Part shown: one piece after another, positions 35,804 to 53,907 of the stretch
Position numbering within the stretch: position 1 is the first letter of the stretch
Layout: every line of letters starts with the position of its first letter
The notes under the pieces: generated by a model
Databases searched by the model: none
The model's input: the letters and a program-made list of their open reading frames with translations, nothing else
Told to the model about the DNA's origin: nothing
Translations under genes and position numbers: made by a program
NCBI GenBank assembly: GCA_007280915.1
Contig: QYQL01000017.1
Span: forward strand, 1 to 64,000
Direction: 5' to 3'
Length of the DNA: 64,000 bases
Origin: Verrucomicrobiaceae bacterium
GTDB lineage: Bacteria; Verrucomicrobiota; Verrucomicrobiia; Chthoniobacterales; Terrimicrobiaceae

Positions 35804-36328
35804 ATGAGAGCCGGAATCGCACTCGGATCCAACCTTGGTGACCGCCTGAACTCCCTTCGCGAAGCCAGGCGATTCCTTTTTTCACTTCACGACGGGCCCG
35901 GTCCGTTCCTCTGCTCGAAAATTTACGAGACCGAGCCTGTCGATTGTCCGAACGACTCTCCGCGCTTTTTGAACGCCGCCATCGAACTGACAACCTCCCT
36001 CTCCCCGCTCGAGCTTCTGGCCTGCCTGCAATCCATCGAGCACAAGCTCGGACGTCCTGCAGATCACTCCTTCCACGGGCCGCGCACTCTCGATCTGGAC
36101 CTCCTGTATTGCGACAATCTTCAGATGTCACTCGATGCCCTAACCCTTCCCCATCCCGGGATCGCGGATCGGCTGTTTGTGCTCCGGCCCCTCTGCGACA
36201 TCTGTCCGGATCGGATCCTTCCCGGACAAACCACGGGAATTCATGCGCTGTGCGAAGCCCACGTCTCGCAGGCACCTGCCGCCCCGGTAATTCAGATGGC
36301 TACCTGGGAGAGTCCCTATGGCCGCTGA
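35804..36328 (+). CDS. folK: 6-hydroxymethyl-dihydropterin pyrophosphokinase
   Basis: Transfers pyrophosphate from ATP to hydroxymethyl-dihydropterin in folate synthesis. 174 residues from the ATG three bases after dapB. HPPK landmarks: GSNLGDRLNSLREA, YETEPVD, FLNAAIEL, and the signature GPRTLDLDLLYCDN followed by LPHPGIADRLFVLRPL. Placement behind dapA-dapB is metabolically unrelated. Its last 29 bases overlap the convergent propeller gene. Confidence 0.95.
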   Translation: MRAGIALGSNLGDRLNSLREARRFLFSLHDGPGPFLCSKIYETEPVDCPNDSPRFLNAAIELTTSLSPLELLACLQSIEHKLGRPADHSFHGPRTLDLDLLYCDNLQMSLDALTLPHPGIADRLFVLRPLCDICPDRILPGQTTGIHALCEAHVSQAPAAPVIQMATWESPYGR

Positions 36329-38432
36329 ATTCCGGTCCGCCAGCGGCGACGTAGCCGTTGCTCGCTCCGGACTTGTCGGGGCTCACCCAGAAGGAAAACA
36401 GCTTTCCGTTGCTCAGATGAAACCGGAATTTCACCGGTTTGCCGGTGAGCGCGGAAAGATCCTCCGCGCCGTTCCATGAGATCATCTGTCTGGTTTTGTC
36501 GATGGAAACGGGCACGCAGTTTTCTTTGGTAAACGGGGCGATGACGTTGCCGGACTCGTCGAGCACTTCCACCCGCAACTCGCCGCTCGGAGCCTCAATA
36601 TTCACAAAAAGCTGCCGGCCTGTGAAAGTCACCGGACGGGTTGTCAGGGATCCGCGCTTGTCATCCGCATCCATGGAAACAAATCCATCGCGCCGGAGAA
36701 ATGCGACGCCGGTGCTGCCGCGGTCATACTCGCCGTTCTCTGTCCAATGGTTTTTGGCCTTTGCGGGATTACCCTGAAACCCGGTGTAGTAGAACCAGAG
36801 TTGGTCGTCCTGAATCACGCAAACTCCTCCGACCGACTGCACATACCCCCTGTCCCATACATCGGAACGCGAGGCCGGGATGAAGGCTTCACGATCCGGA
36901 CGGCTCCAGTGAAATCCGTCCCGGCTGTAGGCTAGGTTCAGCTCGGTGATCTTGGGAAGGCCGCCGCCGCCGGGATTCCGGAAAATCTCAAAAATCCCGA
37001 GCATGATGCTTTCGTAGGCCACCGCATCGAGGTTGTAGAGCTGCGGCTGGACTTTGAACTTCGGATCGGGTGGATCCAGCCGGTCGGCCCTCGCCCAGAA
37101 AACCGGGGCATTCGGCTTGTCGACATTGCCGACAAACGGCGCGTCCCATTTCGGACCTTTCAGGAAATCGTCGCGCTCCCAGTAGTGGCGGCTGCGGTAG
37201 GTTTCCGGAGCAGGCGTTGACCACCGGATACTGAACACCCATTTCTTGCGGAACGGATTATAGAACATCGTGCTGCGGTCGCCTGTCGGACCGGATTCGA
37301 CCGGCTTCGTCCAGCGGATACCATCGGGAGAAACCATGAGCAGTCCCTCGCTTCGGGACAGCCCCATCCCGTCGGGCCCATGCAAAAACATCTTCCACCG
37401 CGCTTGCGGATCCTTGTCCTCGTAATCAGGAAAAACAGCCCACGAGTCTGGCATGATTGTGGGATCCAGCACGCGATTCGAGCCGGGAAACGCATCGAGC
37501 TTCGGCCGGTCCCAATGGATGCCATCGCGGCTGGTCGCGGTGCAGATGGCATTCAGCCAGCCGGCCTCATACCACATGCGGAAAAGTTTTTGCCCGGGAT
37601 CCCACCAGACGCCGCCGCTTTTCGGGCAGGCGACGGCATTGCGCGACCGGTTCAATTCCATCTCGGTCTCCGGAGAAAGGACCGGATTGCCCTCGTATTT
37701 TTTCGCCTTGTGGAACGAACGCTTCAGGTCGGTTGTCTCGATGAGAAAATCGTCCACGAAAAGCTGACGCCCGAGATCGATCGGGATCACCTTCGGCGGA
37801 TGATCGAGATACGGCACATCGATCGGTTCCAGTGTCCGTGCCGCAATCGAGCGCGGCGGCCATTCCCTGGGAAGGCGGATCCCGTTGTAAAGAAGCTCCC
37901 CGTCATTTTCATTCCACGGTTTCGGCGGTTGGGGAACCCAGCTGGTCACATTGCCAGGCCCCACGAGCAAGGCCCATTTTCCCAGCCGGAACTCATCACC
38001 TTTCTCCACCTGCTTCCGATAAACCCGGACCCGGTCGATGGCCGATGTGCCGAAAAGCTGGAATGTCTTCTGTTCCTTGTCCCAGGTGAACCCATAGCCT
38101 TCCAGCGTCGAGGCCAGGCTCCCTGCGTGCGGATTATCCGGTTCCGCCGTCAGCACGGTCACCGTGCCGGGCTTCGCGCAGCGGAAACTCAGGCATTCAA
38201 TCGAGCCGCGGATGAATTTTTTCCCGCTGAGCCGGCGCGGCACTTCTTTCAGCGTATGGGGACGGTCCAAAAAAAGCCTGACCCCGGGCTCGAACTGATC
38301 GATTTCATATGCGTTCATGACCTCGATGTCCGCAGGATCACCAGTGATCCCCGGCTCTGCGGCTCGAAATGCCCCCGACGGCGCAACGCAAAGAAGAAGC
38401 AACCAAATCCGCACGATTTGAAATTTTGACAT
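36300..38432 (-). CDS. Secreted five-bladed propeller glycosidase-like protein
   Basis: 710 residues with a signal peptide (about 1-24, IWLLLLCVAPSGAFRA). An N-terminal region to about residue 210 is of unknown type. From about residue 215 (RQLFVDDFLIE) repeated SRDGIHW and SPDGIRWTKP blades suggest a five-bladed beta-propeller of the GH32/43/68/117-like superfamily. A C-terminal beta-sandwich follows. Such proteins are frequent in Verrucomicrobia and Planctomycetes without assigned activity. The canonical GH32 motifs are missing. It is divergent from the GH106-like gene, with 75 bases between the starts. Confidence 0.6.
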   Translation of the reverse strand: MSKFQIVRIWLLLLCVAPSGAFRAAEPGITGDPADIEVMNAYEIDQFEPGVRLFLDRPHTLKEVPRRLSGKKFIRGSIECLSFRCAKPGTVTVLTAEPDNPHAGSLASTLEGYGFTWDKEQKTFQLFGTSAIDRVRVYRKQVEKGDEFRLGKWALLVGPGNVTSWVPQPPKPWNENDGELLYNGIRLPREWPPRSIAARTLEPIDVPYLDHPPKVIPIDLGRQLFVDDFLIETTDLKRSFHKAKKYEGNPVLSPETEMELNRSRNAVACPKSGGVWWDPGQKLFRMWYEAGWLNAICTATSRDGIHWDRPKLDAFPGSNRVLDPTIMPDSWAVFPDYEDKDPQARWKMFLHGPDGMGLSRSEGLLMVSPDGIRWTKPVESGPTGDRSTMFYNPFRKKWVFSIRWSTPAPETYRSRHYWERDDFLKGPKWDAPFVGNVDKPNAPVFWARADRLDPPDPKFKVQPQLYNLDAVAYESIMLGIFEIFRNPGGGGLPKITELNLAYSRDGFHWSRPDREAFIPASRSDVWDRGYVQSVGGVCVIQDDQLWFYYTGFQGNPAKAKNHWTENGEYDRGSTGVAFLRRDGFVSMDADDKRGSLTTRPVTFTGRQLFVNIEAPSGELRVEVLDESGNVIAPFTKENCVPVSIDKTRQMISWNGAEDLSALTGKPVKFRFHLSNGKLFSFWVSPDKSGASNGYVAAGGPEFSGHRDSPR

Positions 38433-38507
38433 GATTCGTTTCCGGGGAGGATTGTATCGGTCAGTTTTTCATTGGGAAGCCACGCTTTGTCCAGTATCAA
38501 AGGCCAG

Positions 38508-41500
38508 ATGAGACTCCCCCGGTTCTGCGCATTTTTTCTTTGGTCTTTCGCAGTGTTGCTGTCCGCAATGAATGCTCAGTCAGCAGACCGGCTAGAACAG
38601 GGTTTTGCCACTCCCCCGGCGGACGCGCGCCCGCAAACCTGGTGGCATTGGATGAATGGCAACGTCACCAAAGAAGGCATCACCGCCGATCTGGAAGCCA
38701 TGGCGCGCATTGGCATCGGAGGAGCTCAGATCTTCAACGCGGCCCAGCATGACGACCTGCTGCGCCACACGGAACCAGCCGGACCAATCAAAACGCTGAG
38801 CCCGGAATGGATGGCGCTGACCCAGCATGCAATCCGGGAGGCGGAGCGGCTCGGGCTCGAACTCGCGATCCACAACTGCCCGGGCTGGAGCGAATCGGGA
38901 GGTCCGTGGGTGCCTGTGGACCAATCCATGCAGAAGGTGGTCTGGAGCGAAACCAACGTAAAAGGGCCATCCTCATTTTCCGCTCAGCTGAAACAACCTG
39001 ATACCGTCCGCGGATACTACCGCGACATCGCCGTGTTTGCGTTTCCCACGCTGCCGGGCGAGGAGACTGCAGCCCCCCTTCTCGATCCGAAGATCAGCTC
39101 CGACGGACAGAAGATCGACGGTGAAGCAATGCTTGACGGCGATGTCGGCACGGGAACAGAAATCCCGATCCCTACAAAAGACGCCCCGAAAAGCTTTTTG
39201 TTCGAGTTCCGCGAGCCAGTGACATTCGGCACGCTCCGCTTGCTCCTCAAGTCCGACGCCGACGAGACCGTCTATGTCGGTGGAAAAATCGAAGCAAGCG
39301 ATGATGGAAAATCGTTCCGCAAGCTCGGCGATGTGGACCTCTACATCATCAAGCTCAACACCACGACGACGATCAGCCTGCCTCCCACAAAGGCAAGGTT
39401 CGTGAGACTGTCGATGACCACCTCGAACGAGCGCTCGAAGACGATCACATTTTCCGGCGTCCAATTCGGTGCGCCGGGAATTCCGGGAATCGGAAAGAAA
39501 GCCGCTTTCGAAACGCGCGGGGATCGGAAGCCGTCAACCTCGACGGATGCCCCGCTTCCTCCCGAGGTGTGCATCCCGCCGGGACGCCTGCTGAATTTGA
39601 CCGCCCGCATGAAGCCGGACGGTCATTTGGATTGGGATGTGCCAGCGGGCAATTGGACAATCCTCCGGATGGGCCACACATCCACCGGCATCCAGATTCA
39701 TCCGGCGATGGATGCCGACCGCGGGCTTGAATGCGACAAGATGAGCCGCAGCGCGGTCGAGGCTCATTTCAACAACATGATGGGCAAGGTGATCGCGGCA
39801 GCAGGCCCCCTCGCCGGCAAGTCGCTCAAAATGGTGCTCGCCGACAGTTGGGAAGCCGGCTGCCAGAACTGGACCCCGGCATTCATCGCGGAATTTACTC
39901 AGCGGCGCAAATACGACCCCACACCGTGGCTGCCGACATTGACCGGGCGTGCGGTCGGATCGCTGGAGGATAGCGAGCGCTTTCTGTGGGACTTCCGCCG
40001 CACCATCGCGGATCTGATCGCCGAAAACCATTACGGAACTTTTCAGGAGCTCTGCGCCAAGCACGGAATGCTTCTCACTGCCGAAGCCCCAGGCATCGGA
40101 AGCCCTACGATTGCGGACTCCCTCCAGTGCCAGAAGTTCACCGATGTGCCGATGGGGGAATTCTGGATGGACGGACACAATGACAGCCGGGAGCCCGCGA
40201 GCGCAGCGCATGTGTTTGGAAAAAAATTCGTCGCAGCGGAGGCGTTTACAGCGTTCATCCCGGATGCGCGATGGACGAAGGCGCCGTTTGATTTCAAAGC
40301 GATCGGCGACCTGAACTTCTGCCGCGGCATCAACCGGTTTGTCTTCCACCGTTACGCGATGCAGCCGTGGATGGATCGCGCGCCCGGAGTAACCATGGGG
40401 CCATGGGGCAGCAATTTTGAACGCACCCAAACGTGGTGGGAGCAGGCCCGGGCGTGGGTCGCCTACCTGCAACGTTGCCAGTATCTCCTCCAGCAGGGCC
40501 TCTTCGTTGCTGATATCGCCTACTTCTATGGCGAGGGCGCGCCAAATACCATCACCGGCAAAGAACCGAAACTGCCCGACGGCTACAGCTTCGATGCGAT
40601 CAACACGGACGTCCTTCTGAATCACGTCAGTGTGGATGAAACCGGCCGGATCGTTCTGCCGGATGGCATGAGTTACCGCCTTCTGCTGCTTCCCGAGGAG
40701 AACAGGATGACCCCGGAAGTTCTTAAAACCATTGCCTCACTGGTCAAGGCCGGCGCCATCGTGGCAGGCCCGCGTCCCATGAAATCCCCCAGCCTGACGA
40801 ACCAACCGGATGCCAACGCGGAAATTTCAAGGCTCGCCGCCGAAGTCTGGGGGGATTGCGATGGGAAAAACGTGACATCCCACGCATATGGCAAAGGCCG
40901 TGTCGTGTGGGGAGTGCCTGTTGCCGACATTCTCAAGGAGTTGAAAACCCCGCCGGATTTTTCCTCCGACTCGCCTGCGGACTTCGCCTTCATCCACCGG
41001 CAGATCGGCGACACCGATGCGTATTTTGTATCGGGTCAGAAAATGGATCCGGTCACCGCCCGTCTGACATTCCGCGCAGGGAACCGGATTCCTGAGATAT
41101 GGCATCCGGAAACAGGCCGGATCGAACCCGCTCCGGTGTTTTCCGTGAAAGATGGATTGGTCACCGTCTCACTGCACTTCGATCCAGCGGAGGCAATGTT
41201 TGTCGTCTTCCAAAAAAGCGCGGAGGGGGTTGATCCGATCAAGACCTTTGCGCGCGATGGAGAAAACCTCCTCGCTCCTGGTTCGGCCCAAACAGCCAGT
41301 CTCACTCAGTCCGATAGAAAACTCATTGTGAATACCAGCGCCCCAGGACACTACAAAGCGACCACCGCATCGGGCAAAACGCTGGAGGCCCATGTCAAGG
41401 CATTGCCGGATTCAAAAGTCCTGCCTGGCCCATGGGTGCTCAGGTTTCCGCCAAAATGGGGAGCTCCTGAACAAGTCACTCTCGACAAGCTGATTTCCTG

Positions 41501-41900
41501 GACCGAACACCCCGATGGAGGGGTGAAGCATTTCTCCGGCACGGCGACCTACACCATCGAATTCGAATGGGACGGAACTTCCGCTCTCCTGGATTTTGGA
41601 AAGGTGAAAGAAATTGCCGAGGTGCGGCTGAACGGAAAGGACCTCGGCATCCTCTGGAAACCGCCCTTCCGAGTGGATGCGAGCAGCGCGCTACGATCGG
41701 GCCTCAATAAGCTGGAGGTGAAAGTCACAAACCTCTGGCCGAACCGCCTGATCGGCGATGCCGGGCTTCCGGAAGACCAGCGCGTCACATGGACCACTTA
41801 CCAGCCTTATCACCCCAATGATCCGCTCCTGGAATCCGGTCTGCTCGGTCCGGTCCGCTTGGTGCCCGTTGCCCGCGTGGCTTTTCCGGAGGCCAAGTAG
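38508..41900 (+). CDS. Secreted GH106-like glycosidase (alpha-L-rhamnosidase family)
   Basis: 1130 residues from the ATG at 38508 (MRLPRFCAFF, a good signal peptide to about residue 27). The N-terminus matches the GH106 pattern: FATPPADARPQTWWHWMNGNVTKEGI, LEAMARIGIGGAQIF, and LGLELAIHNCPGWSESGGPW. A large catalytic region follows, then a C-terminal jelly-roll (YTIEFEWDG, VRLNGKDLGILWKPPFRVD) like GH2 sugar-binding domains. GH106 members remove alpha-L-rhamnose. It lies eight bases ahead of the first GH32 gene. The exact sugar is inferred from family only. Confidence 0.82.
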   Translation: MRLPRFCAFFLWSFAVLLSAMNAQSADRLEQGFATPPADARPQTWWHWMNGNVTKEGITADLEAMARIGIGGAQIFNAAQHDDLLRHTEPAGPIKTLSPEWMALTQHAIREAERLGLELAIHNCPGWSESGGPWVPVDQSMQKVVWSETNVKGPSSFSAQLKQPDTVRGYYRDIAVFAFPTLPGEETAAPLLDPKISSDGQKIDGEAMLDGDVGTGTEIPIPTKDAPKSFLFEFREPVTFGTLRLLLKSDADETVYVGGKIEASDDGKSFRKLGDVDLYIIKLNTTTTISLPPTKARFVRLSMTTSNERSKTITFSGVQFGAPGIPGIGKKAAFETRGDRKPSTSTDAPLPPEVCIPPGRLLNLTARMKPDGHLDWDVPAGNWTILRMGHTSTGIQIHPAMDADRGLECDKMSRSAVEAHFNNMMGKVIAAAGPLAGKSLKMVLADSWEAGCQNWTPAFIAEFTQRRKYDPTPWLPTLTGRAVGSLEDSERFLWDFRRTIADLIAENHYGTFQELCAKHGMLLTAEAPGIGSPTIADSLQCQKFTDVPMGEFWMDGHNDSREPASAAHVFGKKFVAAEAFTAFIPDARWTKAPFDFKAIGDLNFCRGINRFVFHRYAMQPWMDRAPGVTMGPWGSNFERTQTWWEQARAWVAYLQRCQYLLQQGLFVADIAYFYGEGAPNTITGKEPKLPDGYSFDAINTDVLLNHVSVDETGRIVLPDGMSYRLLLLPEENRMTPEVLKTIASLVKAGAIVAGPRPMKSPSLTNQPDANAEISRLAAEVWGDCDGKNVTSHAYGKGRVVWGVPVADILKELKTPPDFSSDSPADFAFIHRQIGDTDAYFVSGQKMDPVTARLTFRAGNRIPEIWHPETGRIEPAPVFSVKDGLVTVSLHFDPAEAMFVVFQKSAEGVDPIKTFARDGENLLAPGSAQTASLTQSDRKLIVNTSAPGHYKATTASGKTLEAHVKALPDSKVLPGPWVLRFPPKWGAPEQVTLDKLISWTEHPDGGVKHFSGTATYTIEFEWDGTSALLDFGKVKEIAEVRLNGKDLGILWKPPFRVDASSALRSGLNKLEVKVTNLWPNRLIGDAGLPEDQRVTWTTYQPYHPNDPLLESGLLGPVRLVPVARVAFPEAK

Positions 41901-41908
41901 CTCAGGAT

Positions 41909-43627
41909 ATGAAATATTTTCTTGCGCTGCTGCTGATCGTCCAGTCGGTCTGCGCCAACCCAACACCAACGCCCCCCGTCAAACCGGTCACACGCGAGCG
42001 CACGATGTCCCTCGACAAACGCTACCTGCTTCTGCCCGTCAAAAACCGACCCAAGGACAAGCAGCACGCCTCGCTCATTGTGGACGGCGTGGCCGTGCGG
42101 AAATTCAATATTGAGCTGGATGAAAAGCCCGACTGGTTCGCCCACCTCGACGTCAGCGATTGGAAGGGCAAAACGGCAACGCTCCGCATTGACAATCTGC
42201 CGGCAGATTCCAAGGCAGCCGACCTTGTCTCCACCTCCGATGAAGTTTGGAACGCCGCCGGTCTCTACCACGAAACGCTTCGTCCGCAATTGCAGTTCTC
42301 GACCAGATGCGGCTGGATCAATGACCCCAATGGTCTCGTTTTTTACAATGGCGAGTATCACATATTTTTCCAACACTCCCCCTATAGTTGGAGCGGAGGA
42401 GGCCCCCACTGGGGCCATGCGACAAGCACGGACCTAGTGCATTGGCGGGAGCACGGCGAAGCGGTTTATCCCGACGACCTCGGGGGCCCATGGAGCGGCA
42501 GCGCGGTCGTTGACTGGAAAAACACCAGCGGATTCGGCAAGGACGGCAAACCGCCGCTCGTGCTGATCTACAGCCACGTCGGCAATCCCGCCACGCAGCA
42601 CATCGCCTACAGCACGGACGGCCGCACATTCACAAAGTTCGATGGCAATCCCGTGCTCAAGAACATCAGCTTTCTCAACCGCGACCCAAAGGTTTTCTGG
42701 CACGAACCGACCCAACGCTGGGTGATGGTGCTCTATGTCGGCGAGGGCCCCGCCGAGCCCGGAAAACCCATGCCTGGCCACACCATTCAGTTCCTAACGT
42801 CGCCAAACCTCAAGGATTGGACTCCCGCCAGCGTGACAAAAGGCGGAGGAGGCTATGATTTCTTCCTCTACGAATGTCCCGACTTCTTCGAGTTGCCGGT
42901 CGATGGCGATGCCTCAAAAAGAAAATGGGTGCTCTCGGCCGCAGACAGCGCCTATGCCGTCGGCTCATTCGACGGGAGCCGATTCACTCCTGACGAGATA
43001 CGTATCCAGGGCCAGTCACGTCGAGGCTGTTTCTACGCGCCGCAAACGTTCAGCGACACGCCGGACGGACGCCGGATTCAGATCGGATGGGGACAGGCTC
43101 CCGCGCCGGGCATGCCATTCAATCAGCTCCTCACGCTGCCATGCGAACTTCAGCTTCGAAAGACTCCCGAGGGAGTTCGTCTGCGGCGCATTCCAGTCAA
43201 AGAACTCGAAACGCTGCGGGGAAAATCATGGAAAAACGACCGGCCCACACTGGCAGAGGGTGATGCAAATCCCCTCGCCGACGCGCGGGGCGAACTGCTG
43301 GAAATCCGAGCCGACTTCACTCCCGCCGCCGACAGCGAAGTGACGTTCAACGTGCGGGGCGTCGAGATCCGATACAATGCGGCCACGCAGGAAATCTCGG
43401 GCACCGACGTGCATGCGCCCGCGCAGCTGGAAGAAGGACGGCAGGTCATCACGATCTTTGCCGACAGAAATTATTTCAACGTCCTGGCCGCCGATGGCCT
43501 CACCTACATGCCATTCCCGGTCATCCCCAAGCCGGAAAACCTCGGCGTCTCTGTGAACGTCAAGGGCGGGGCCATTTCAATCCATCAACTCGAAGCCTTC
43601 GAATTGAAATCGATCTGGAAAAAGTAA
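41909..43627 (+). CDS. Secreted GH32 fructanase, copy A
   Basis: Splits beta-fructosyl linkages of levan, inulin or sucrose. 572 residues with a signal peptide (1-16). An N-terminal DUF4980-like module (about 28-100; KRYLLLPV, IELDEKPDWFAHLDVS) precedes the five-bladed propeller. All three catalytic motifs are intact: WINDPNG with nucleophile D139, RDP (258-260) with transition-state D259, and YECPD with acid/base E322. A C-terminal beta-sandwich follows. Copy B at 45188-47389 is a close paralogue. It is followed by a repeat-filled intergenic region and a regulator on the other strand. Confidence 0.95.
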   Translation: MKYFLALLLIVQSVCANPTPTPPVKPVTRERTMSLDKRYLLLPVKNRPKDKQHASLIVDGVAVRKFNIELDEKPDWFAHLDVSDWKGKTATLRIDNLPADSKAADLVSTSDEVWNAAGLYHETLRPQLQFSTRCGWINDPNGLVFYNGEYHIFFQHSPYSWSGGGPHWGHATSTDLVHWREHGEAVYPDDLGGPWSGSAVVDWKNTSGFGKDGKPPLVLIYSHVGNPATQHIAYSTDGRTFTKFDGNPVLKNISFLNRDPKVFWHEPTQRWVMVLYVGEGPAEPGKPMPGHTIQFLTSPNLKDWTPASVTKGGGGYDFFLYECPDFFELPVDGDASKRKWVLSAADSAYAVGSFDGSRFTPDEIRIQGQSRRGCFYAPQTFSDTPDGRRIQIGWGQAPAPGMPFNQLLTLPCELQLRKTPEGVRLRRIPVKELETLRGKSWKNDRPTLAEGDANPLADARGELLEIRADFTPAADSEVTFNVRGVEIRYNAATQEISGTDVHAPAQLEEGRQVITIFADRNYFNVLAADGLTYMPFPVIPKPENLGVSVNVKGGAISIHQLEAFELKSIWKK

Positions 43628-43914: not shown

Positions 43915-45045
43915 CTATGCCTTCACCCGAACAGAAGCATTCCGGTTGGCTTGGTAGGCCCCGCAACTTCCCCGCACCGCCAGATGCGGTGTCAGCATCA
44001 CCGCACGGGGAGGCCATTCCGGCTGCGCGATGCGCTGCATCAGGGTGTGGAATGCCGTCACGCCGATTTCCCGGCAGGGTTGGTGAATCGTGGTCAGCGG
44101 CACGACAAGCAGCGTGGCGTAGCGGACATCGTCGAACCCCGCCACGCGGACCTGACCGGGCACGCTCAACTTGAGCTGCTCCAGCGTGCGCATCAACACC
44201 GCGGCGGTATGATCGTTGGCACAGATGAAGGCGTCGAAAAGCCTCCCCGCCGTCAGCTTGCGCACAAATTTCAAATCGGCCGGATCGCCCCACGACACCC
44301 AGTCCGGGCGCAGTTCGATCTTGTGGCGTAGGAGAGCCTCCCGGACTCCGGCAATGCGGATATCCACACTCGATGCCGAATGCGGACGCGCCACGAAAGC
44401 GATCCGCCGGCAACCCAGCCTCACGAGGTGCTCGGCGAGCAGATATCCCCCGGCGAGGTTGTCAACCCCGACCAGATCGAAATCGCTCCGGCTCGGAAAC
44501 GCCCGCAGATCGCGGTCGAGCAGCACGACATGAATGCCTGCGTCCCGCAACCTAGTGGCGATCCGTTCGTTCACCGTCTCGTTGTCGCTCGACAGTTCGA
44601 AGGGGGCAAAAAACACCCCCTCAACCTGTCGCTGGATGAACTGTTCGCAAAGCTGCTCGGCATGGTCCCGGCTCAGGTCGCTGTGCGAAAGGGCCGATCC
44701 ACCCCAGATCACGCTGTAACCGTTCACCCGCGCCAAGCTGGCAATCTCACCGCAAATGACCCCGAAAATTTCGGTTGTTCCGAGACCGGGAACAAGCAGG
44801 CCCAACTGCTTGGTCGGAACGCTTGCGGTGACTTCCCTCACATACGATCCCGAGCCGGCACGTCGCTCGATGAGACCCTCCGCCTGAAGATCCCGCATCG
44901 CTCTCGCGACAGTAGGGCGGGAGGTGCCGAACTCCTCAACAAGCTGCGCCTCGCTCGGCAGGCGTTGTGCTTTTCCAAACTTCCCGGAAAGGATGCCTTC
45001 GCGGATCTGATCGGAAATCCTGCGATGAAGAGGATGCTTGGGCAT
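43915..45045 (-). CDS. GntR-type HTH regulator with LacI-like sugar-binding domain
   Basis: 376 residues from the ATG at 45045 (MPKHPLHRRI). Residues 1-71 are a winged GntR helix-turn-helix (IREGILSGKFGKAQRLPSEAQL, then TSRPTVARAMRDLQAEGLIERR). Residues about 79-365 are a LacI/ribose-binding-protein-like effector domain (LGLLVPG, GVFFAPFE, DNLAGGYLLAEHLVRLGCRRIAFV, FICANDHTAAVLMRTL, RVAGFDD). The architecture is that of AraR-like regulators. It is divergent from the second GH32 gene, and 142 bases between the starts hold paired motifs that could be its operator. Likely a sugar-sensing repressor of the fructan genes (inference). Confidence 0.92.
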   Translation of the reverse strand: MPKHPLHRRISDQIREGILSGKFGKAQRLPSEAQLVEEFGTSRPTVARAMRDLQAEGLIERRAGSGSYVREVTASVPTKQLGLLVPGLGTTEIFGVICGEIASLARVNGYSVIWGGSALSHSDLSRDHAEQLCEQFIQRQVEGVFFAPFELSSDNETVNERIATRLRDAGIHVVLLDRDLRAFPSRSDFDLVGVDNLAGGYLLAEHLVRLGCRRIAFVARPHSASSVDIRIAGVREALLRHKIELRPDWVSWGDPADLKFVRKLTAGRLFDAFICANDHTAAVLMRTLEQLKLSVPGQVRVAGFDDVRYATLLVVPLTTIHQPCREIGVTAFHTLMQRIAQPEWPPRAVMLTPHLAVRGSCGAYQANRNASVRVKA

Positions 45046-45187
45046 AGGATTTACAGGTTGTGAATCTGATATTACAGGTTTTACGAACCTAGAGGCCAAT
45101 TGTTTTTACACCCATGGTTTTCCACGCGAATCATCCAAGGCACATATCGGTTCCCTTCCCCGCACTTCTTCCCCGTTCCAGGAATTC
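45046..45187. promoter_or_regulatory. Divergent control region, GntR/LacI regulator and GH32 copy B
   Basis: 142 bases between the two starts. TTACAGGTT occurs at 45051-45059 and 45072-45080, in direct orientation with a 21-base spacing, about two helical turns. The second copy runs into a near palindrome AGGTT-TTACG-AACCT (45076-45090). This is a good operator candidate for the adjacent regulator. A purine-rich AGGA lies just ahead of the GH32-B ATG. No confident -35/-10 pair was identified. Confidence 0.5.
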
Positions 45188-47389
45188 ATGAAACTTCCCG
45201 TCCTCATTACCCTTGGCCTCTGCATTCCCATTCTCCACGCTGCTCAGCCGGATGATGTCATCGCGGATTTTGAAGCGGATGGATATGGAGACTGGAATGT
45301 AGCGGGCACCGCCTTCGGTCCGGGCCCAGCTCAGGGGGCGCTGCCGCGTCAGATGAAAGTCGAGGGGTTCAAAGGTCGCGGCCTCGCTAATTCCTTTGGT
45401 AGTGGGGATAATAGCACCGGGACGCTCACTTCTCCGGAGTTCACAATCCGCCGCAAGTTCATCACGTTTCTCATCGGCGGCGGTGGGTTCGAAGGCAAAA
45501 CCTGCATGAACCTGATTGTCGATGGAAATGTCGTTCGAACGGTCACGGGACCGAACATCGAACATGGAGGCACTGAGAAACTGGCTCCGGGCTCGTGGGA
45601 GGTGGGCGAGTTTGCCGGCAAAACGGCCGTCATCGAAATTGTGGACAACCAGAAAGGTGGCTGGGGGCATATCAATGTGGACCAAATCGAGCAGTCCGAC
45701 ACGGCTGTGCATGCGCCCCTCAAGCTGATCACACAAGAGCGCACTATTCCCCTCGACAAGCGCTACCTGCTGCTGCCCGTAACAACCCGGGCCCGGGAGT
45801 CGCAGAAGCAACGCGCCACCCTGACTGTGGACGGCGCACCGGTGCGGGTATTTTACCTGGATCTGGATGAAAATCCCGAGTGGTTTGCCCACCTCGATGT
45901 CAGCGAGTGGAAGGAAAAACCGGCCACGCTCCGCATCGACAATCTTCCCGAATCCTCGAAAGCCATCGATCTCGTCACCACCTCCGATGAGATCTGGAAT
46001 GCTGGCGGTCTCTATAACGAGGCTTTGCGACCCCAGATTCAGTTCTCGACCAGGCGCGGATGGGTCAACGACCCCAACGGGCTCGTATTTTACAACGGCG
46101 AGTATCACCTCTTCTTCCAGCACAACCCGTATGGATGGAACGCGGGCGGCCCGCACTGGGGACATGCGACCAGCCCCGATCTTGTGCACTGGCAGGAGCA
46201 CGGAGAGGCGCTGTATCCGGACGACTTCGGAGCGATGTTCAGCGGAAGCGCGGTCGTTGATTGGAAGAATACGAGCGGATTCGGCAAGGACGGCAAACCG
46301 CCACTCGTGCTGATCTACACCGCCGCAGGCAACCCTTTCACCCAGTGCATCGCCTACAGCACGGACGGACGCACGTTCACGAAGTTCTCCGGCAATCCTG
46401 TGGTGAATAATATCACGCGCGGAAACCGCGATCCGAAAGTCACCTGGCATGAACCGACGCAGCGCTGGGTGATGGTCCTCTATGTCGGTCAGCCATCCCC
46501 CACCGGCGGGACGGACGCAAAAGGGAATCCGAAACAGACTCACACCATCCATTTCCTCACGTCACCGAACCTCCGGGACTGGACGCCCTCAAGCGTGACT
46601 AGCGGCGGCGAAGACTCCGACCACTTTCTCTTCGAATGCCCGGATTTCTTTCAACTCCCGGTCAATGGCGATGCCTCAAACAAGAAGTGGGTGCTCTCCG
46701 CCGCAAACTGTGAATATGCCGTCGGAACGTTCGACGGAACCAAATTCACCGCCGAAGGGGAACGCGCTCCCGGTATGCGTCCCGGCGGTTCCTTCTACGC
46801 ACCGCAGACGTTCAGCGACATGCCGGACGGACGCCGCATCCAAATCGGCTGGGGACGTGCGACCGCGCCGGGCATGCCATTCAACCAGCTCCTCACGCTG
46901 CCCTGCGAACTTCAACTCCGGCAGACCCCCGATGGGCTGCGCCTGCGGAGGCAACCGGTCAAAGAACTCGAATCCCTGCGCGGCAAATCCTGGAAATCCG
47001 ACAAGTCCACTCTGGCCGGGGGTGATGCAAATCCCCTCCCGGGCGTCCATGGCGAACTACTGGAAATCCACGCCGACTTCACTCCCGCCGCCGACAGCGA
47101 GGTGACGTTCAATGTGCGCGGAATCGAAATCCGCTACGACGCCGCCAAGCAGGAGATCTCAGGCCCGGGCGAGCATGTGCCCGCACCGCTGCAAAACGGA
47201 CGGCAGACGATTACGATCTTTGCCGACAGAAACTACTTCAACGTCCTCGCCACCGACGGCCTCACCTACATGCCGTTCGCGGCCATACCCAAGCCGGACA
47301 ACCTCGGCGTCTCGGTGAGCGTGAAGGGCGGGGCAATCACCATCCACCAGCTCGAAGCTTTCGAACTGAAATCCATCTGGAAAAAATGA
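45188..47389 (+). CDS. Secreted GH32 fructanase, copy B with extra N-terminal module
   Basis: 733 residues from the ATG at 45188 (signal peptide 1-19). Residues about 20-172 form a beta-sandwich module absent from copy A (VIADFEADGYGDWNVAGTAF, then GGWGHINVDQIE), typical of levanase-like GH32 proteins. A DUF4980-like part (about 186-260) precedes the propeller. Catalytic motifs are intact: WVNDPNG with D295, RDP (414-416) with D415, and FECPD with E483. Long runs match copy A, so they are duplicates that differ by module gain or loss. Probably cleaves polymeric fructan, with the added module for binding. Confidence 0.95.
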   Translation: MKLPVLITLGLCIPILHAAQPDDVIADFEADGYGDWNVAGTAFGPGPAQGALPRQMKVEGFKGRGLANSFGSGDNSTGTLTSPEFTIRRKFITFLIGGGGFEGKTCMNLIVDGNVVRTVTGPNIEHGGTEKLAPGSWEVGEFAGKTAVIEIVDNQKGGWGHINVDQIEQSDTAVHAPLKLITQERTIPLDKRYLLLPVTTRARESQKQRATLTVDGAPVRVFYLDLDENPEWFAHLDVSEWKEKPATLRIDNLPESSKAIDLVTTSDEIWNAGGLYNEALRPQIQFSTRRGWVNDPNGLVFYNGEYHLFFQHNPYGWNAGGPHWGHATSPDLVHWQEHGEALYPDDFGAMFSGSAVVDWKNTSGFGKDGKPPLVLIYTAAGNPFTQCIAYSTDGRTFTKFSGNPVVNNITRGNRDPKVTWHEPTQRWVMVLYVGQPSPTGGTDAKGNPKQTHTIHFLTSPNLRDWTPSSVTSGGEDSDHFLFECPDFFQLPVNGDASNKKWVLSAANCEYAVGTFDGTKFTAEGERAPGMRPGGSFYAPQTFSDMPDGRRIQIGWGRATAPGMPFNQLLTLPCELQLRQTPDGLRLRRQPVKELESLRGKSWKSDKSTLAGGDANPLPGVHGELLEIHADFTPAADSEVTFNVRGIEIRYDAAKQEISGPGEHVPAPLQNGRQTITIFADRNYFNVLATDGLTYMPFAAIPKPDNLGVSVSVKGGAITIHQLEAFELKSIWKK

Positions 47390-47568: not shown

Positions 47569-48891
47569 ATGAATCCACGTCTCTTCCTCTGGTCTCTCGT
47601 CTCCGCGCTTGCGGGGTTTCTCTTCGGCTTCGACACGGTCGTCATCTCCGGCGCGGAGAAGACGATCCAGGCGCTCTGGGGCCTGAGCCCGGCGATGCAC
47701 GGGCTCGCCATGAGCGCGGCCCTGTGGGGCACCGTCCTCGGGTCGGTCGTGGGAAGCTGGCCGACCGATCATTTCGGGAGAAAGAAGACGCTCTTCTGCA
47801 TCGGCTCGCTGTTCCTCGTCGGCTCGCTGTGGTCAGCAGGCTGCAACGACGTCTATTCGTTCATGATCGCAAGATTCATCGGCGGACTCGGGATCGGCAT
47901 CTCAACCGTGGCCTCACCGCTTTACATCTCGGAAATCGCGCCGCCGGAACGCCGCGGAAGGCTCGCCGGAATGTTTCAGTTCAACATCGTCTTCGGCATT
48001 CTCGTCGCATTTCTCTCGAACTTCCTGCTGGCCGGCATCGGGGAAAACTCATGGCGCTGGATGCTCGGGATCATGGCGGTTCCCTCGATCATCTACACGC
48101 TCGCCTGCCTCATCATTCCAGAGAGCCCGCGCTGGCTGATCGGCCGCAAGGGCGACCGCGCTGCCGGGGCACGCGTCATCCGCCTCATCTACCCGGATGC
48201 CACGGAGGCCGAGATCGAGGCGAAGGTGGATGAAATCGCCTCGGTGTCCCATGATAAGTCGAGCACCGGACGGTTCTGGAGCATGCAGCTGAAGACGCCG
48301 ATCCTGCTCGCCTTCCTGATCGCGTTCTTCAACCAGCTCTCCGGCATCAATGCGATCCTGTATTTCGCGCCGCGAATTTTCGAGCTCGCCGGGCTGGGAG
48401 CCAAGGCGGCATTGCTCCAGTCGGTCGGCATCGGGGTCACCAACCTCATCTTTACGTTCATCGGCCTCTGGCTGATCGACCGCCTCGGCCGCCGCACGCT
48501 GCTCTACATCGGCTCGTTTGGCTACATCGCTTCGCTCGGCCTTTGTGCATGGGCGTTCTTCACCAAAACTTTCGCCATCGTTCCCGCGTGCGTCTTTGCG
48601 TTCATCGCGGCCCATGCGGTCGGACAGGGAACGGTCATCTGGGTTTTGATATCGGAGATTTTCCCGAACCGCCACCGGGCGCAGGGTCAGTCGCTCGGCA
48701 GCTTCACCCACTGGATCTTCGCCGCCCTCCTCACCCTGTTTTTCCCGTCAATGGTCACAGCTTTCGCACCCGGATACGTGTTTCTATTTTTCTGCTTCAT
48801 GATGGTCCTCCAACTCATCTGGGTGAAAATGATGGTTCCCGAAACCAAGGGTCGGACTCTCGAAGACATCGAGCGGCACCTGGAAGCCTGA
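47569..48891 (+). CDS. MFS sugar porter (SP family)
   Basis: 440 residues and twelve predicted membrane helices. Sugar-porter motifs: GFDTVVISGA in helix 1, GRKKTLF after helix 2, GGLGIGISTVASPLYISEIAPPERRG, PESPRWLIGRKG at the end of the first half, QLSGINAILYF in helix 7, DRLGRRTLL, and PETKGRTLEDIE at the C-terminus. Imports a monosaccharide, probably fructose or glucose released by the GH32 enzymes, by proton symport or facilitated diffusion. Followed twelve bases later by a PfkB kinase, a natural partner. Confidence 0.92.
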   Translation: MNPRLFLWSLVSALAGFLFGFDTVVISGAEKTIQALWGLSPAMHGLAMSAALWGTVLGSVVGSWPTDHFGRKKTLFCIGSLFLVGSLWSAGCNDVYSFMIARFIGGLGIGISTVASPLYISEIAPPERRGRLAGMFQFNIVFGILVAFLSNFLLAGIGENSWRWMLGIMAVPSIIYTLACLIIPESPRWLIGRKGDRAAGARVIRLIYPDATEAEIEAKVDEIASVSHDKSSTGRFWSMQLKTPILLAFLIAFFNQLSGINAILYFAPRIFELAGLGAKAALLQSVGIGVTNLIFTFIGLWLIDRLGRRTLLYIGSFGYIASLGLCAWAFFTKTFAIVPACVFAFIAAHAVGQGTVIWVLISEIFPNRHRAQGQSLGSFTHWIFAALLTLFFPSMVTAFAPGYVFLFFCFMMVLQLIWVKMMVPETKGRTLEDIERHLEA

Positions 48892-48903: not shown

Positions 48904-50058
48904 ATGAGCACACCGATGACGATTTATCGCGAGCTGGCCTCACTCGCGCCTGTCATTGCTGATTTCAAAGCACGGACAGCCGCACCGGCGGAACGCTACC
49001 GCGGGCTCTGCGGCTTCGACGGCTTTATTGACACCTTCGTAAGGCTGCAGATTCCCTCCTCGATGGCGGAATTCGGCCCGAAAGTTGCCGCCGCCGCAGG
49101 CGTCTCGGCATCGTATCCGGCAAGCCATCTGGGCGACAAATTCGGAGGCAACGGGCCTCTCTTTGCCGCAGCGATGCATGACATTCACGGCGGTGAAATC
49201 GATCTGACTTACATTGGAGCGATGGGCGCGGGGGAGGTTTTGCCGATCTTTCATGATGCGCTGGTTGGAAAAACCCAACGGCTTTTTACCCTGGCTCACC
49301 CGGCCCACACGACTTGTCTGGAATTCACCGACGGCAAGGTCATGCTCTGCGATATGGCCCCCTGCGGAGACGTAACATGGGAGCGGCTTCTCGAATGTGT
49401 CGGCGGGACGGCTCTGGATGAACTCCTGCGCGACGCCGGGTTCATCAGCGCCGTGAACTGGGGAAAACTCCCTCACGCCGGAGTGATTTGGAGCAATATC
49501 GCCAACCGTCTCACCGAACTCGGAGTCCCTGCAAAGAAAACCCACTTTTTCATGGACTTGGCGGAATTCGAAACCCGTCCGCCCGCTGACCGCGAAGATT
49601 TGCTCTCCCGACTGGGACCGATCACCCGCCAATGCCGGACCATCCTGAGTTTCAATCTCAAGGAAGCCTGGCAAATGGCGGAAAGCTTCGAGGGCCATTT
49701 TCATGGAAAAAAATCTCCTGATGACGTCGCCGAACTGGCCGCCCTCCTACGTTCGCGCATCGATGTCGATCGCGTGATCATCCATCCGAACGACGGCGCC
49801 GCCTGCGCCAGCGCAGACGGAACCGTCTATGTGCCGGGACCATATTGCCGCGAACCGCTGATCTCAACCGGAGCGGGAGATAATTTCGGCGCAGGGTGCC
49901 TCTCCGCCGCCATGCGCGGGCTCGATGACGCAGGAATCCTGCTGGCCGGAAACTGCGCCAGCGGGCATTTCGTCCGCTCCGGCCGCTCGGCATCATTCGC
50001 GGACATGAGAAATTTGCTCGACGCCTGGAGTGAAGGAGCCCTCGGTGAACGCCTCTAG
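48904..50058 (+). CDS. PfkB-family sugar kinase
   Basis: 384 residues, cytoplasmic. The PfkB signature STGAGDNFGAGCLSA (from about 321) has the catalytic Asp at 326 and the anion hole GAGD. An N-terminal GFDGFIDTF and a GGNGPLFAAAMHDI substrate region are present, and the lid is atypical. With the porter before it and GH32 genes on either side, fructose is the likely substrate, which would make it a fructokinase; ribokinase-like specificity is possible. It is 129 bases ahead of the third GH32 gene. Confidence 0.86.
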   Translation: MSTPMTIYRELASLAPVIADFKARTAAPAERYRGLCGFDGFIDTFVRLQIPSSMAEFGPKVAAAAGVSASYPASHLGDKFGGNGPLFAAAMHDIHGGEIDLTYIGAMGAGEVLPIFHDALVGKTQRLFTLAHPAHTTCLEFTDGKVMLCDMAPCGDVTWERLLECVGGTALDELLRDAGFISAVNWGKLPHAGVIWSNIANRLTELGVPAKKTHFFMDLAEFETRPPADREDLLSRLGPITRQCRTILSFNLKEAWQMAESFEGHFHGKKSPDDVAELAALLRSRIDVDRVIIHPNDGAACASADGTVYVPGPYCREPLISTGAGDNFGAGCLSAAMRGLDDAGILLAGNCASGHFVRSGRSASFADMRNLLDAWSEGALGERL

Positions 50059-50187: not shown

Positions 50188-51810
50188 ATGAAATCGTTGA
50201 TCCTTTTATGGTGTTTTTCCCTGGCGACTGCTGCGGCTGTCGAATCTGCCGCCAGCAGTAATTCTCAATCCCCCGGCGTGCTCATGCATCAGGCTGATGT
50301 GTTGGATCAAGCGGTCGCTCTGGATCACAACCGGCCTGCCTGGCACCTCACTCCAACGGTCGGCAGTTGGTGGGATGTGAACGCCCTCATGTATCACAAG
50401 GGCCGCTATCACGTGATGTTCATGAAGCACATGTTTGATGATCAGGGAAACGCACTGCCCGATAACTGGGGGCATGCCTCCAGCACGGACTTGCTGCACT
50501 GGCAATTTCACCCTGACACGTTGCATTCGGGCCTCTTCGATGATGGAAAAGCCCGTCCATTCTGGAGCGGGGATGCCATCGAAAATGCGCCGTTGCCGAC
50601 GATCATTCCCCTCGTTGTCAAAAACGGTATCAACAGCGGTGTCTGGGCGGCGCAACCGAAGGATGACGAACTCCTGGAATGGAAATTCATCCAGCAGAAA
50701 CCCATTCTTTGCCAGAAGCCGAAACCCGCCGCGCCGGCTGTTGGCCAAAAGTCCGAATACATTATCTTCGACTCCACTGCATGGTATGACGCTTCGAAGC
50801 AGACCTACTTCCTGCTGTGCGGCAACAAGAACTTCCGTCCCGGCTACGAGGGGGATTGCACAAGCCTGTTCACCGGAAAGGACCTCCTCCACTGGGAATA
50901 CGTCGGACCTCTTTACAAAAGCCGCCGCGACATGACGTCCATCCACGAGGACACCGCCTGTCCGGACTTCTTTCCGCTCGGGGACAAATGGCTACTCCTC
51001 TCCCACGTCCATAATCCCTGGACCCATTGCCGCTACTATGTCGGCAGCTTCGACGGCACCACGTTCACGCCGGAGAGTGTCGGACGCATCGGCTGGATCA
51101 ATGACCAGATCGCCGCCCCGGAAACCATGCCCGACGGCAAAGGCCGGCGGATATTTTTCGGACAGGTGCGCACCGCTGGAAAAAACGGCCTGTGGAAAAC
51201 TTCCTTCTCCATGCCTGTCGTCCTGAGCCTCGGCGAGGACAAAACCCTCCGGTTTCAGCCTGCCGATGAGCTTCTGACTCTGCGCGACAACAGCCATACC
51301 GAGAAAGACCTCACCCTCGACGACCGGTCCCTGCCTCTACCCGAAGCTGCAGCCCGGTCCGTCGAACTTCGCGCCACATTCACCGACGTCAACGCGAAGG
51401 CGGTCGGCTTCCGGGTCGCCAGCTCGCCCACTCAGGACGAATTCACCGACATCTCGTATCTTCCTGAGGAAAAAGTCATCGAAATCAACTTTGCGAAAAG
51501 CGATCTCAAAAACCGCACCCGCTACACCCGCTACCACTCGCGCGCTCTGGAGGGAAAAATGATCGAAGCAAACCCGGACGTAACCGTCCAGCGGATGCCA
51601 TTTGAGCTCAAGCCCGGCGAACCGCTGGATCTGCATGTCTTCGTGGACGGCTCCATCATCGAAGTCATCGCCAATTCCCGCGCCTTCACAGCGCAGACCA
51701 TCTACCCTTCGAAACGCGACTCAGTCGGCTCATACATTTTCGCACGCGATGGAAAAGCCAACGTGCCCCTGCTGGAAACCCACCACCTCAACTCCACGCT
51801 GAACCGCTGA
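50188..51810 (+). CDS. Divergent secreted GH32-like protein, copy C
   Basis: 540 residues from the ATG at 50188 (signal peptide about 1-18). The GH32 fold is clear (WWDVNALMYHKGRYH, WGHASSTDLLHW, DFFPLGDKWLLLSH, C-terminal HVFVDGSIIEVIAN). The catalytic motifs are altered. The first reads WWDVNA, keeping D63 but losing the flanking N, P and G of NDPNG. The second reads FDSTAW, keeping D195 but with Phe for Arg. The third reads TACPD with Ala257 where the acid/base Glu stands, although E254 is three residues earlier. It may be a changed-specificity hydrolase, a transferase or a binding protein. Confidence 0.85.
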   Translation: MKSLILLWCFSLATAAAVESAASSNSQSPGVLMHQADVLDQAVALDHNRPAWHLTPTVGSWWDVNALMYHKGRYHVMFMKHMFDDQGNALPDNWGHASSTDLLHWQFHPDTLHSGLFDDGKARPFWSGDAIENAPLPTIIPLVVKNGINSGVWAAQPKDDELLEWKFIQQKPILCQKPKPAAPAVGQKSEYIIFDSTAWYDASKQTYFLLCGNKNFRPGYEGDCTSLFTGKDLLHWEYVGPLYKSRRDMTSIHEDTACPDFFPLGDKWLLLSHVHNPWTHCRYYVGSFDGTTFTPESVGRIGWINDQIAAPETMPDGKGRRIFFGQVRTAGKNGLWKTSFSMPVVLSLGEDKTLRFQPADELLTLRDNSHTEKDLTLDDRSLPLPEAAARSVELRATFTDVNAKAVGFRVASSPTQDEFTDISYLPEEKVIEINFAKSDLKNRTRYTRYHSRALEGKMIEANPDVTVQRMPFELKPGEPLDLHVFVDGSIIEVIANSRAFTAQTIYPSKRDSVGSYIFARDGKANVPLLETHHLNSTLNR

Positions 51811-51819
51811 AGCGCGCGA

Positions 51820-53907
51820 TCACTTCGCCGCCCGATCAGCCCAGAGCTTCTCCGTGACCGGGAACATCGACACGCGGAATTTCGTGCAGCCGAATGGCAC
51901 AAGTTCGATTTTCGCCTTCTCGCCGCCGCTCACGGGAGCGGCAGGGAGCGGCTGGAGTTCCGTCGGCTTCCAGTCGAACTGCACAGCATCCGCACGCAGG
52001 CGGAGGGGCGATGAAAGCGACCAATCCCAATTCTTCGGCATCGGAGTGCGGACGACTTCGATGCCGCTGCTGCGCGGATCGACATTCAGCGCGTAGTTCC
52101 ACACGGCTCCCGGCGCAACGCGGTTCGGAGTCTCGTCGGCAATCGGGAGAGCAAACAAAAGCGGCCCATACATCACGCTTGCAAATGGATTGTGGACATC
52201 CCTCACCTGCGAGAGCTGGCGGGAGCGCGGCTGATGAAATTTAGCAACCTCCTCCTGACGGAAGTAGTCCTGGTCGGGATAGGATGTCTCCTGACCGCAG
52301 ATCAACCGGGGCGTCATCGGGAAGCGGATTCCGATCCGGTCGCCGGTTTTCCATGTGCGGTCGAGCTTCACGAATCCATTGGCATCCACCTCCATTTTCA
52401 CAGGTTGGTCGTTGATTTGGATTTCGGGATTCTTGCACCATGCTGGAATGCGGAGGGAAACCGGGAACGCCGCATCGCGCGAGGGAGTCACTTCCATGAC
52501 GATGGATTCCTCGAATGGATAAACAGTTTTACTTTCCACGATGACGTCCACCCCGTCGGCAACCTGTGCCTTCACCCGGCACGGACCGTAAAGCGTTGCA
52601 GCAAGGCCGTGGTCGGGCGTGGCCATCCACATGTGCATGATGTAATTCGGCAGAACGCGGCTCACGTTGCCGACGCAGCAGAGACAGGGGTGCCCGATCG
52701 GGGTAAACTGATACGACCCAAGCGAAGGATTGTGGGGTTCCTCCAGCGGGAGCGATTCGTTGAGGCGGTTCGGGCTCTGGTAATAGCACATCGTCTCGAA
52801 ATCGCGGGCGATCGGTGCCGGGCCGGCATTGAAGAAGATCTGCTCGATGCGGTCGGCATAGCTCCCCTCGCCCGTGATGCGGAGGAGCCAGAGATATGTC
52901 CAGTTGGCGGCAGCCACGTTGCACGTTTCCACATTGCGGGTGGAGCCGATGCCGGCCAGGTGTTCCTCACCGGAGACCAAACCATTCGGCAGCAGGAACG
53001 ACTGGTCGCTCCATTTCACCGCGCTCTTTGTGGCATCAAGGAGGTGCCGGTCGCCAGTCCACGGATACAGCAGCGCGGGAACCCGTTCGTTCTCGTAAAA
53101 TATGACAGCATGCCCGGGAACTATTTTCCCGCTGTTCCAGGTTTCGACCGCCTTCTTGAATCCGGGTCGCTCCAGCACCGAGCGAACGTTGGCCAGAACC
53201 TGCGGATCCCGGCTCAGGAGATACGTGTCGATCATCGGGTCGAGATTGACCATGCCGTTCACCACCCCGAAATCATCCTGAAAATCCGGGAGCGGAAAAT
53301 TCCGGTAAACTTTTACCAGAGCTTCCAGAATCCTGGGATCGCCGCTCGCCTGGTAATAGGCGACCAAAGCACGTCCCATGTGCGAATGCGCCCAACTGTT
53401 GAATCCGTCGTCATTGAAGATGCTATTCGGCATCCAGTAGACAAAGGAATCGCCCCCTTTCAGAATGCCGTCCACCACCGGATCCAGCCGGGACTTCGCT
53501 TTTGCGATCAGGTCCGGATCATTCAGGATGTAGGCCATCCTCACCAAGCCATCCAGCCAGTAGGCGCACTGCTCGAGCGGCCAGCCGGTCCCCTTTTCCT
53601 TAACGCCTCCGGCTTTGAAATCCTGCCCCGACCAGCCTTTTGCATAGGTCTCCGCCCGCTCATCAAGATGCCCCGTGATGCCCTTCCCGGCGGCCAGCGC
53701 CCAGTCACGCAGCCAGCCGGTCGGCTCGACCGCTCCCGGCTTGAGCGGCTGGAAAGCCATCGGCACATCCTCAGCACGGGTAACCAGCGCTGTGGCGCTC
53801 AGGAAAATGAGGGCGATGAAAATCCATCTCCAACAGGATCGACAGGCAAAGTGCCGCCAATGATGACTTGAAAGGGGGAAGGCAATTGAGCGGAGGGAGT
53901 GATTCAT
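51820..53907 (-). CDS. GH127-family beta-L-arabinofuranosidase-like protein
   Basis: 695 residues, DUF1680/GH127. The N-terminus has a hydrophobic export segment (about 28-45, WIFIALIFLSATALVTRA) behind a basic stretch. The (alpha/alpha)6 barrel carries the zinc-thiolate site: E327 and C329 in the ETCNV motif, then C410-C411 in CLCCVGN, equivalent to Glu338/Cys340 and Cys417/Cys418 of the characterised HypBA1. GLVRMAYILNDP and PLEQCAYWLDG also fit. It likely removes beta-L-arabinofuranosyl or related residues from plant glycans. It is convergent with GH32 copy C, with nine bases between. Confidence 0.92.
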   Translation of the reverse strand: MNHSLRSIAFPLSSHHWRHFACRSCWRWIFIALIFLSATALVTRAEDVPMAFQPLKPGAVEPTGWLRDWALAAGKGITGHLDERAETYAKGWSGQDFKAGGVKEKGTGWPLEQCAYWLDGLVRMAYILNDPDLIAKAKSRLDPVVDGILKGGDSFVYWMPNSIFNDDGFNSWAHSHMGRALVAYYQASGDPRILEALVKVYRNFPLPDFQDDFGVVNGMVNLDPMIDTYLLSRDPQVLANVRSVLERPGFKKAVETWNSGKIVPGHAVIFYENERVPALLYPWTGDRHLLDATKSAVKWSDQSFLLPNGLVSGEEHLAGIGSTRNVETCNVAAANWTYLWLLRITGEGSYADRIEQIFFNAGPAPIARDFETMCYYQSPNRLNESLPLEEPHNPSLGSYQFTPIGHPCLCCVGNVSRVLPNYIMHMWMATPDHGLAATLYGPCRVKAQVADGVDVIVESKTVYPFEESIVMEVTPSRDAAFPVSLRIPAWCKNPEIQINDQPVKMEVDANGFVKLDRTWKTGDRIGIRFPMTPRLICGQETSYPDQDYFRQEEVAKFHQPRSRQLSQVRDVHNPFASVMYGPLLFALPIADETPNRVAPGAVWNYALNVDPRSSGIEVVRTPMPKNWDWSLSSPLRLRADAVQFDWKPTELQPLPAAPVSGGEKAKIELVPFGCTKFRVSMFPVTEKLWADRAAK

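Follow-up and report, generated by a model that had tools for sequence, protein, structure and literature searches.

A secreted GH32-like protein from a cross-phylum clade with a replaced, and possibly rebuilt, acid/base network

Introduction

GH32 is a textbook family of retaining glycosidases, and the acid/base Glu and the adjacent Arg are regarded as constant throughout clan GH-J. In Arabidopsis cell-wall invertase 1 (AtcwINV1), Arg148 of the RDP motif has been proposed to protonate the acid/base Glu203, and the RDP Arg is reported to be completely conserved in the clan; Asp239 of the same enzyme is weakly hydrogen-bonded to the glucose moiety of sucrose, and its mutation or removal lowers the calculated pKa of Glu203 (PMC3360783). 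A His/Asp dyad acting as general acid has simulation support for GH117, and has been proposed for GH3 NagZ and GH156 (PMC11574756). Here we analyse a gene at 50,188–51,810 on the forward strand of a 64,000-nucleotide window (the whole stretch of DNA under study) from a Verrucomicrobiaceae bacterium, and compare its product with AtcwINV1 and with the GH32 beta-fructofuranosidases of Frischella perrara (PDB 7vco), Bifidobacterium (3pig and 6num) and Thermotoga maritima (BfrA). The protein shares with these enzymes the fold, both Pfam domains, the nucleophile and stabiliser Asp residues and a WGHxxS motif, whereas the Glu of ECPD, the Arg of RDP and the Tyr of YASK are replaced, and Asp255 and His275 have been gained.

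Results and discussion

Domain architecture and active-site motifs

The frame runs uninterrupted from an ATG start, with no internal stop, and encodes 540 residues with a signal-peptide-like N-terminus. Both GH32 domains score above their Pfam cut-offs: the five-bladed propeller, GH32N, at residues 53–358 (50,344–51,261, + strand; PF00251 Glyco_hydro_32N, E = 1.3e-24), and the beta-sandwich, GH32C, at residues 361–527 (51,268–51,768, + strand; PF08244 Glyco_hydro_32C, E = 7.3e-17). The fold search agrees, in that an AlphaFold2 model of the whole protein (50 aligned sequences, mean pLDDT 88.7, pTM 0.89) retrieved only GH32 structures among its best 50 matches in the PDB, headed by 7vco (E = 1.9e-36, TM-score 0.73, 22% identity in the structural alignment). 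The protein is GH32-like in family and fold class, as a first-pass annotation of the sequence had proposed.

That annotation had also read the altered motifs as ACPD, DVNA and FDST around two surviving aspartates, and the translation agrees. Specifically, (i) the nucleophile of WxNDPNG is present as Asp63 (50,374–50,376) in the altered setting SWWDVNAL, with WWDVNA in place of the motif; (ii) the stabiliser of RDP is retained as Asp195, preceded by Phe194 rather than Arg (50,767–50,772; IIFDSTAW, with FDST for RDP); (iii) the ECPD region reads HEDTACPDFFPLG (HEDTACPD), such that Ala257 (50,956–50,958) occupies the position of the acid/base Glu, three residues after Glu254; and (iv) Ala309 (51,112–51,114) stands at the site of the YASK Tyr. 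The pair Glu254-Asp255 (50,947–50,952) forms the putative relocated acid/base segment. His275 (51,010–51,012) aligns, by means of an Arabidopsis fragment checked against PDB chains, with Asp239 of AtcwINV1, a position that adjoins the acid/base residue. All of these features lie on the forward strand.

Distribution of the pattern across phyla

A profile built from the protein and six near relatives yielded 80 loci from public genomes, a sample that is not random because it was obtained by pattern scan. Most of the 114 GH32-type sequences in the first alignment share the change, with ECPD reading xED-x-[A/S/M]-C. In a comparison of 91 tree-defined clade rows with 20 canonical rows, position 257 carries Asp in 2 of the clade rows and a non-acidic residue (Ala, Ser, Met or Gly) in the other 89, as against Glu in 18 of the canonical ones; Arg194 occurs in 0/91 versus 18/20 (and in 34 of 37 rows of a larger canonical set), and Tyr at position 309 in 2/91 versus 15/20. 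Asp255 and His275 are each present in 89 of the 91 clade rows and in none of the 20 canonical rows, with the caution that Asp255 itself served to label the first 89 rows, though not the later ones; His275 played no part in labelling any row. In the 11 clade rows from a later search, which were not used in defining the pattern, Asp255 occurs in 10 and His275 in all 11.

Addition of these 11 rows from a phylum search, and of more from two further phyla, gave an enlarged set of 164 aligned rows. Here, 116 rows lack Arg194 and an acid at 257 and possess both Asp255 and His275, 32 combine Arg194 with Glu257 and lack Asp255 as well as His275, and the remaining 16 are scattered; no row carrying Glu257 has both Asp255 and His275. 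The motif pattern is not due to chance, since it occurs in 116 of 164 GH32-type rows and in no canonical one. As the first-pass annotation had supposed, the residue at the acid/base site of our protein is not a Glu; alignment to GH32 across the 164 rows extends this from one protein to a clade.

When the clade is taken as the 120 rows with neither Arg194 nor Glu257 or Gln257, Asp63 is found in 120, Asp195 in 117, His275 in 118, Asp255 in 116 (always together with His275) and Glu254 in 95, position 254 being otherwise Asp (20), Gly (3), Met (1) or Thr (1); at position 257, 3 rows have Asp and the other 117 have Ala, Ser, Met or Gly. The catalytic aspartates are near-invariant despite a mean pairwise identity of ~39%, and the Asn preceding the nucleophile occurs in only 37 of the 91 rows. 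Judged from these alignments (~120 sequences examined), the protein is a member of a cross-phylum clade in which the entire acid/base network has been replaced, with representatives in Verrucomicrobia, Planctomycetes, Lentisphaerae, Poribacteria, Latescibacteria, Chloroflexi and other phyla. This large clade is apparently undescribed so far; a search of open-access papers for GH32 proteins devoid of that catalytic Glu, for new families of clan GH-J and for GH32 in these phyla found no description of it, and we know of no assayed member. Candidates for a solved structure were rejected, as the five PDB matches checked residue by residue (7vco, 6num, 3pig, 1uyp and 1w2t) all carry the EC motif, its Glu being mutated to Asp in 1w2t. 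Plasmid-borne relatives from haloarchaea, Streptomyces and Arthrobacter were likewise set aside, the five that were read being canonical EC/RD rows.

The source genome holds seven GH32N genes, and the ED..C plus His pattern recurs on contigs C95 and C98 and in one gene on C153. The clade member on C98 (L004) and two from Poribacteria (L065 and L071) have Ala in place of the stabiliser Asp195, with readings of SAPCIW and GGAPCAW, and retain Asp63, Asp255 and His275.

Phylogeny and conservation

A tree was inferred with the trait columns left out (quick search, mixture model, no bootstrap), in which 40 clade rows fall on one side of a branch and 34 canonical rows on the other (SH-aLRT 96.8). The protein is placed in an 11-row subclade (support 99) with L036, L037, L038, L042, L045 and others, on a long branch of its own (1.35). 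The changes that give DVNA (Pro64Val and Gly66Ala) and FDST (Pro196Ser) are largely confined to the protein or its near kin, whereas the ECPD change and the loss of the RDP Arg are common to the whole clade. Of the 35 positions with a conservation of 90% or more across the clade, the protein retains 32, and just 4 of the other 101 rows retain fewer; it departs at Thr57, Ser196 and Phe208, and also, at less conserved positions beside the nucleophile, at Val64 and Ala66.

These data bear on whether the protein might be a non-catalytic sugar binder, as the first-pass annotation had offered among its options, or a degenerating copy. The long branch, the altered DPNG and RDP motifs and the missing Glu, Arg and Tyr could be read in that way. 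However, the 540-residue frame and signal peptide are intact, the model is well folded, and the protein lies inside the clade's range of conservation; a sugar-binding role is improbable because the nucleophile and stabiliser are retained, being kept in 120 and 117 of 120 clade rows, as are the 32 strongly conserved positions. A lone degenerate protein is rejected on the clade-wide pattern and the same 32 positions. On comparison with its relatives, the protein looks divergent rather than broken.

The tree also contains an apparent reversal. Nested within the clade, L061 (Planctomycetota) and L080 (Bacteroidales) have Asp at position 257 but neither Asp255 nor His275, both of which have been lost, and by sequence this lineage is one that regained an acid at the ECPD position as it lost the other two residues. 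L161 has Asp at 257 with Glu at 255, and retains His275. The near-exclusion of an acid at 255 versus 257 provides the best comparative hint that both do the same job, a hint which rests on one or two events.

A candidate mechanism

We favour, at a probability of roughly 0.55, an active secreted enzyme of beta-fructofuranosidase type from a distinct GH32-like clade, with an acid/base site rebuilt on Asp255, probably in concert with His275. As in GH32, the anomeric carbon would be attacked by Asp63, with Asp195 stabilising the transition state, and configuration would presumably be retained. The ECPD Glu is gone, as are its Arg and Tyr partners, and its part in donating and accepting the proton would pass to two acidic residues where the same propeller strand begins, with Asp255 the most likely acid/base, Glu254 supporting it, and His275 pairing with Asp255 from the end of the next strand. 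A residue that became fixed once in a clade can nonetheless be kept for fold or substrate binding rather than for catalysis.

The first-pass annotation had suggested that Glu254 might substitute for the missing Glu. The changed acid/base site and a nearby acidic substitute both stand, but Glu254 is probably not the main one, as Asp255 is better kept in the clade (116 versus 95 of 120 rows, with His275 in 118). It is conceivable, if rather unlikely, that Glu254 reaches the normal acid/base site via a longer loop before the strand, so that the enzyme would be a standard GH32 hydrolase whose glutamate has moved. Consistent with this, an acidic residue (Glu or Asp) occupies position 254 in 115 of 120 rows, and the models place Glu254 three residues before the start of its own strand, just as they place the ECPD Glu of a canonical GH32 from the window, although DSSP strand ends are weak evidence on such placement. 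Against it, the near-invariant residue is Asp255, position 254 is Met in the near relative L036 and Thr in clade member L103, and the clade has also lost the Arg and Tyr with which the canonical Glu is partnered.

The position of His275 is a known site of specificity and pKa tuning in GH32, from plant invertases and fructan exohydrolases that vary at the equivalent of AtcwINV1 Asp239; those enzymes retain ECPD and RDP, whereas in the clade the position is a near-invariant His. A His/Asp pair about 20 residues apart that replaces a carboxylic acid donor is also found in the GH117 3,6-anhydro-L-galactosidases, which are five-bladed propellers, but GH117 is inverting and has the His before the Asp; Pfam and PDB sequence searches with the protein gave no match to the GH117 family or to a GH117 chain. 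His275 might itself be the general acid, held by Asp255, in the manner of the dyads described for GH117 (inverting) and proposed for GH3 NagZ (retaining) and GH156 (PMC11574756). The joint presence of Asp255 and His275 in 116 of 120 rows fits this idea, as does their 20-residue spacing, near that of His302 and Asp320 in GH117 though in reversed order; we consider it unlikely, however, given that His275 also occurs in canonical rows that retain the Glu. Because it is found in a few such rows (L171, L172 and L177), His275 may have been in place before the Glu was lost, or may have a role at the +1 subsite. These three rows and L134 are GH32 rows that retain ECP and have SPH at the His275 position.

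A bolder reading, which we offer tentatively and regard as doubtful, is that the clade constitutes a separate family of clan GH-J, in which an Asp-His dyad stands in for the Glu/Arg/Tyr network, having arisen within the GH32 fold and been reversed in one lineage, and which would act on fructan-like polymers whose breakdown canonical GH32 enzymes are unable to complete. By lacking the Glu and Arg yet retaining both nucleophile and stabiliser, such a clade would demonstrate that the acid/base machinery is replaceable as a unit. Many genes from environmental genomes that are named GH32 or sucrose-6-phosphate hydrolase may then differ in mechanism or substrate, and sister lineages with an acid at either of two strand positions would provide a clean test system for acid relocation.

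Gene neighbourhood

Upstream of the gene and on the same strand are two canonical GH32 genes, at 41,909–43,627 and 45,188–47,389 (75% identical to each other; the latter assigned by Pfam and by its NDPNG, RDP and ECPD motifs), an MFS sugar porter at 47,569–48,891 (Sugar_tr, E = 6.3e-103; TIGR00879 above cut-off) and a PfkB-family kinase of the prokaryotic ketohexokinase (Khk) type at 48,904–50,058 (PF25270, E = 5.5e-30). Between the two canonical genes, a divergent regulator at 43,915–45,099 on the reverse strand fuses a GntR-type DNA-binding domain to a LacI-type sugar-binding domain. The porter, the ketohexokinase-like gene and the canonical GH32 genes suggest that the enzyme releases a ketose. 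A fructan-like substrate would probably be trimmed outside the cytoplasm alongside the canonical enzymes, and the ketose would enter via the porter and be phosphorylated by the ketohexokinase-like protein. The same neighbours point away from a fructosyltransferase (the first-pass annotation had raised a transferase as one possible change of function) or a glycosidase of another furanoside. Positions near the substrate do differ in much of the clade (loss of Arg194, and the Asn before the nucleophile in 37/91 rows), as a changed acceptor or sugar might entail, but the neighbourhood speaks for ketose release and use and no evidence points to a transferase, and we give either alternative very little credence.

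Related arrangements occur elsewhere in the clade. L036 carries, all on one strand, a sugar porter, a PfkB gene and the clade GH32, with a canonical GH32 farther along, and in L039 a sugar porter follows the clade gene. A canonical-type GH32 lies within the fetched flanks of seven clade loci (L036, L038, L059, L061, L070, L090 and L099). Among 93 flanking proteins surveyed, GH32, MFS and sulfatases are the commonest, with no single dominant partner, and a scan for promoters and terminators gave results at chance level. In L099 (Verrucomicrobia V1-690), the canonical-type paralogue adjoining the clade member, in a frame starting near 3600, has Asn in place of the nucleophile (GWNTNPYG) and Gln in place of the acid/base residue (NQCPD), and is likely a dead GH32.

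Two further genes of the window, both on the reverse strand, merit mention. A GH127-type protein at 51,820–53,907, convergent with the gene studied here, bears a weak resemblance to aceric acid hydrolase (NF049879, scoring far under the cut-off). At 36,300–38,432, a 710-residue open frame without a Pfam match lies opposite a GH106 alpha-L-rhamnosidase gene at 38,472–41,900.
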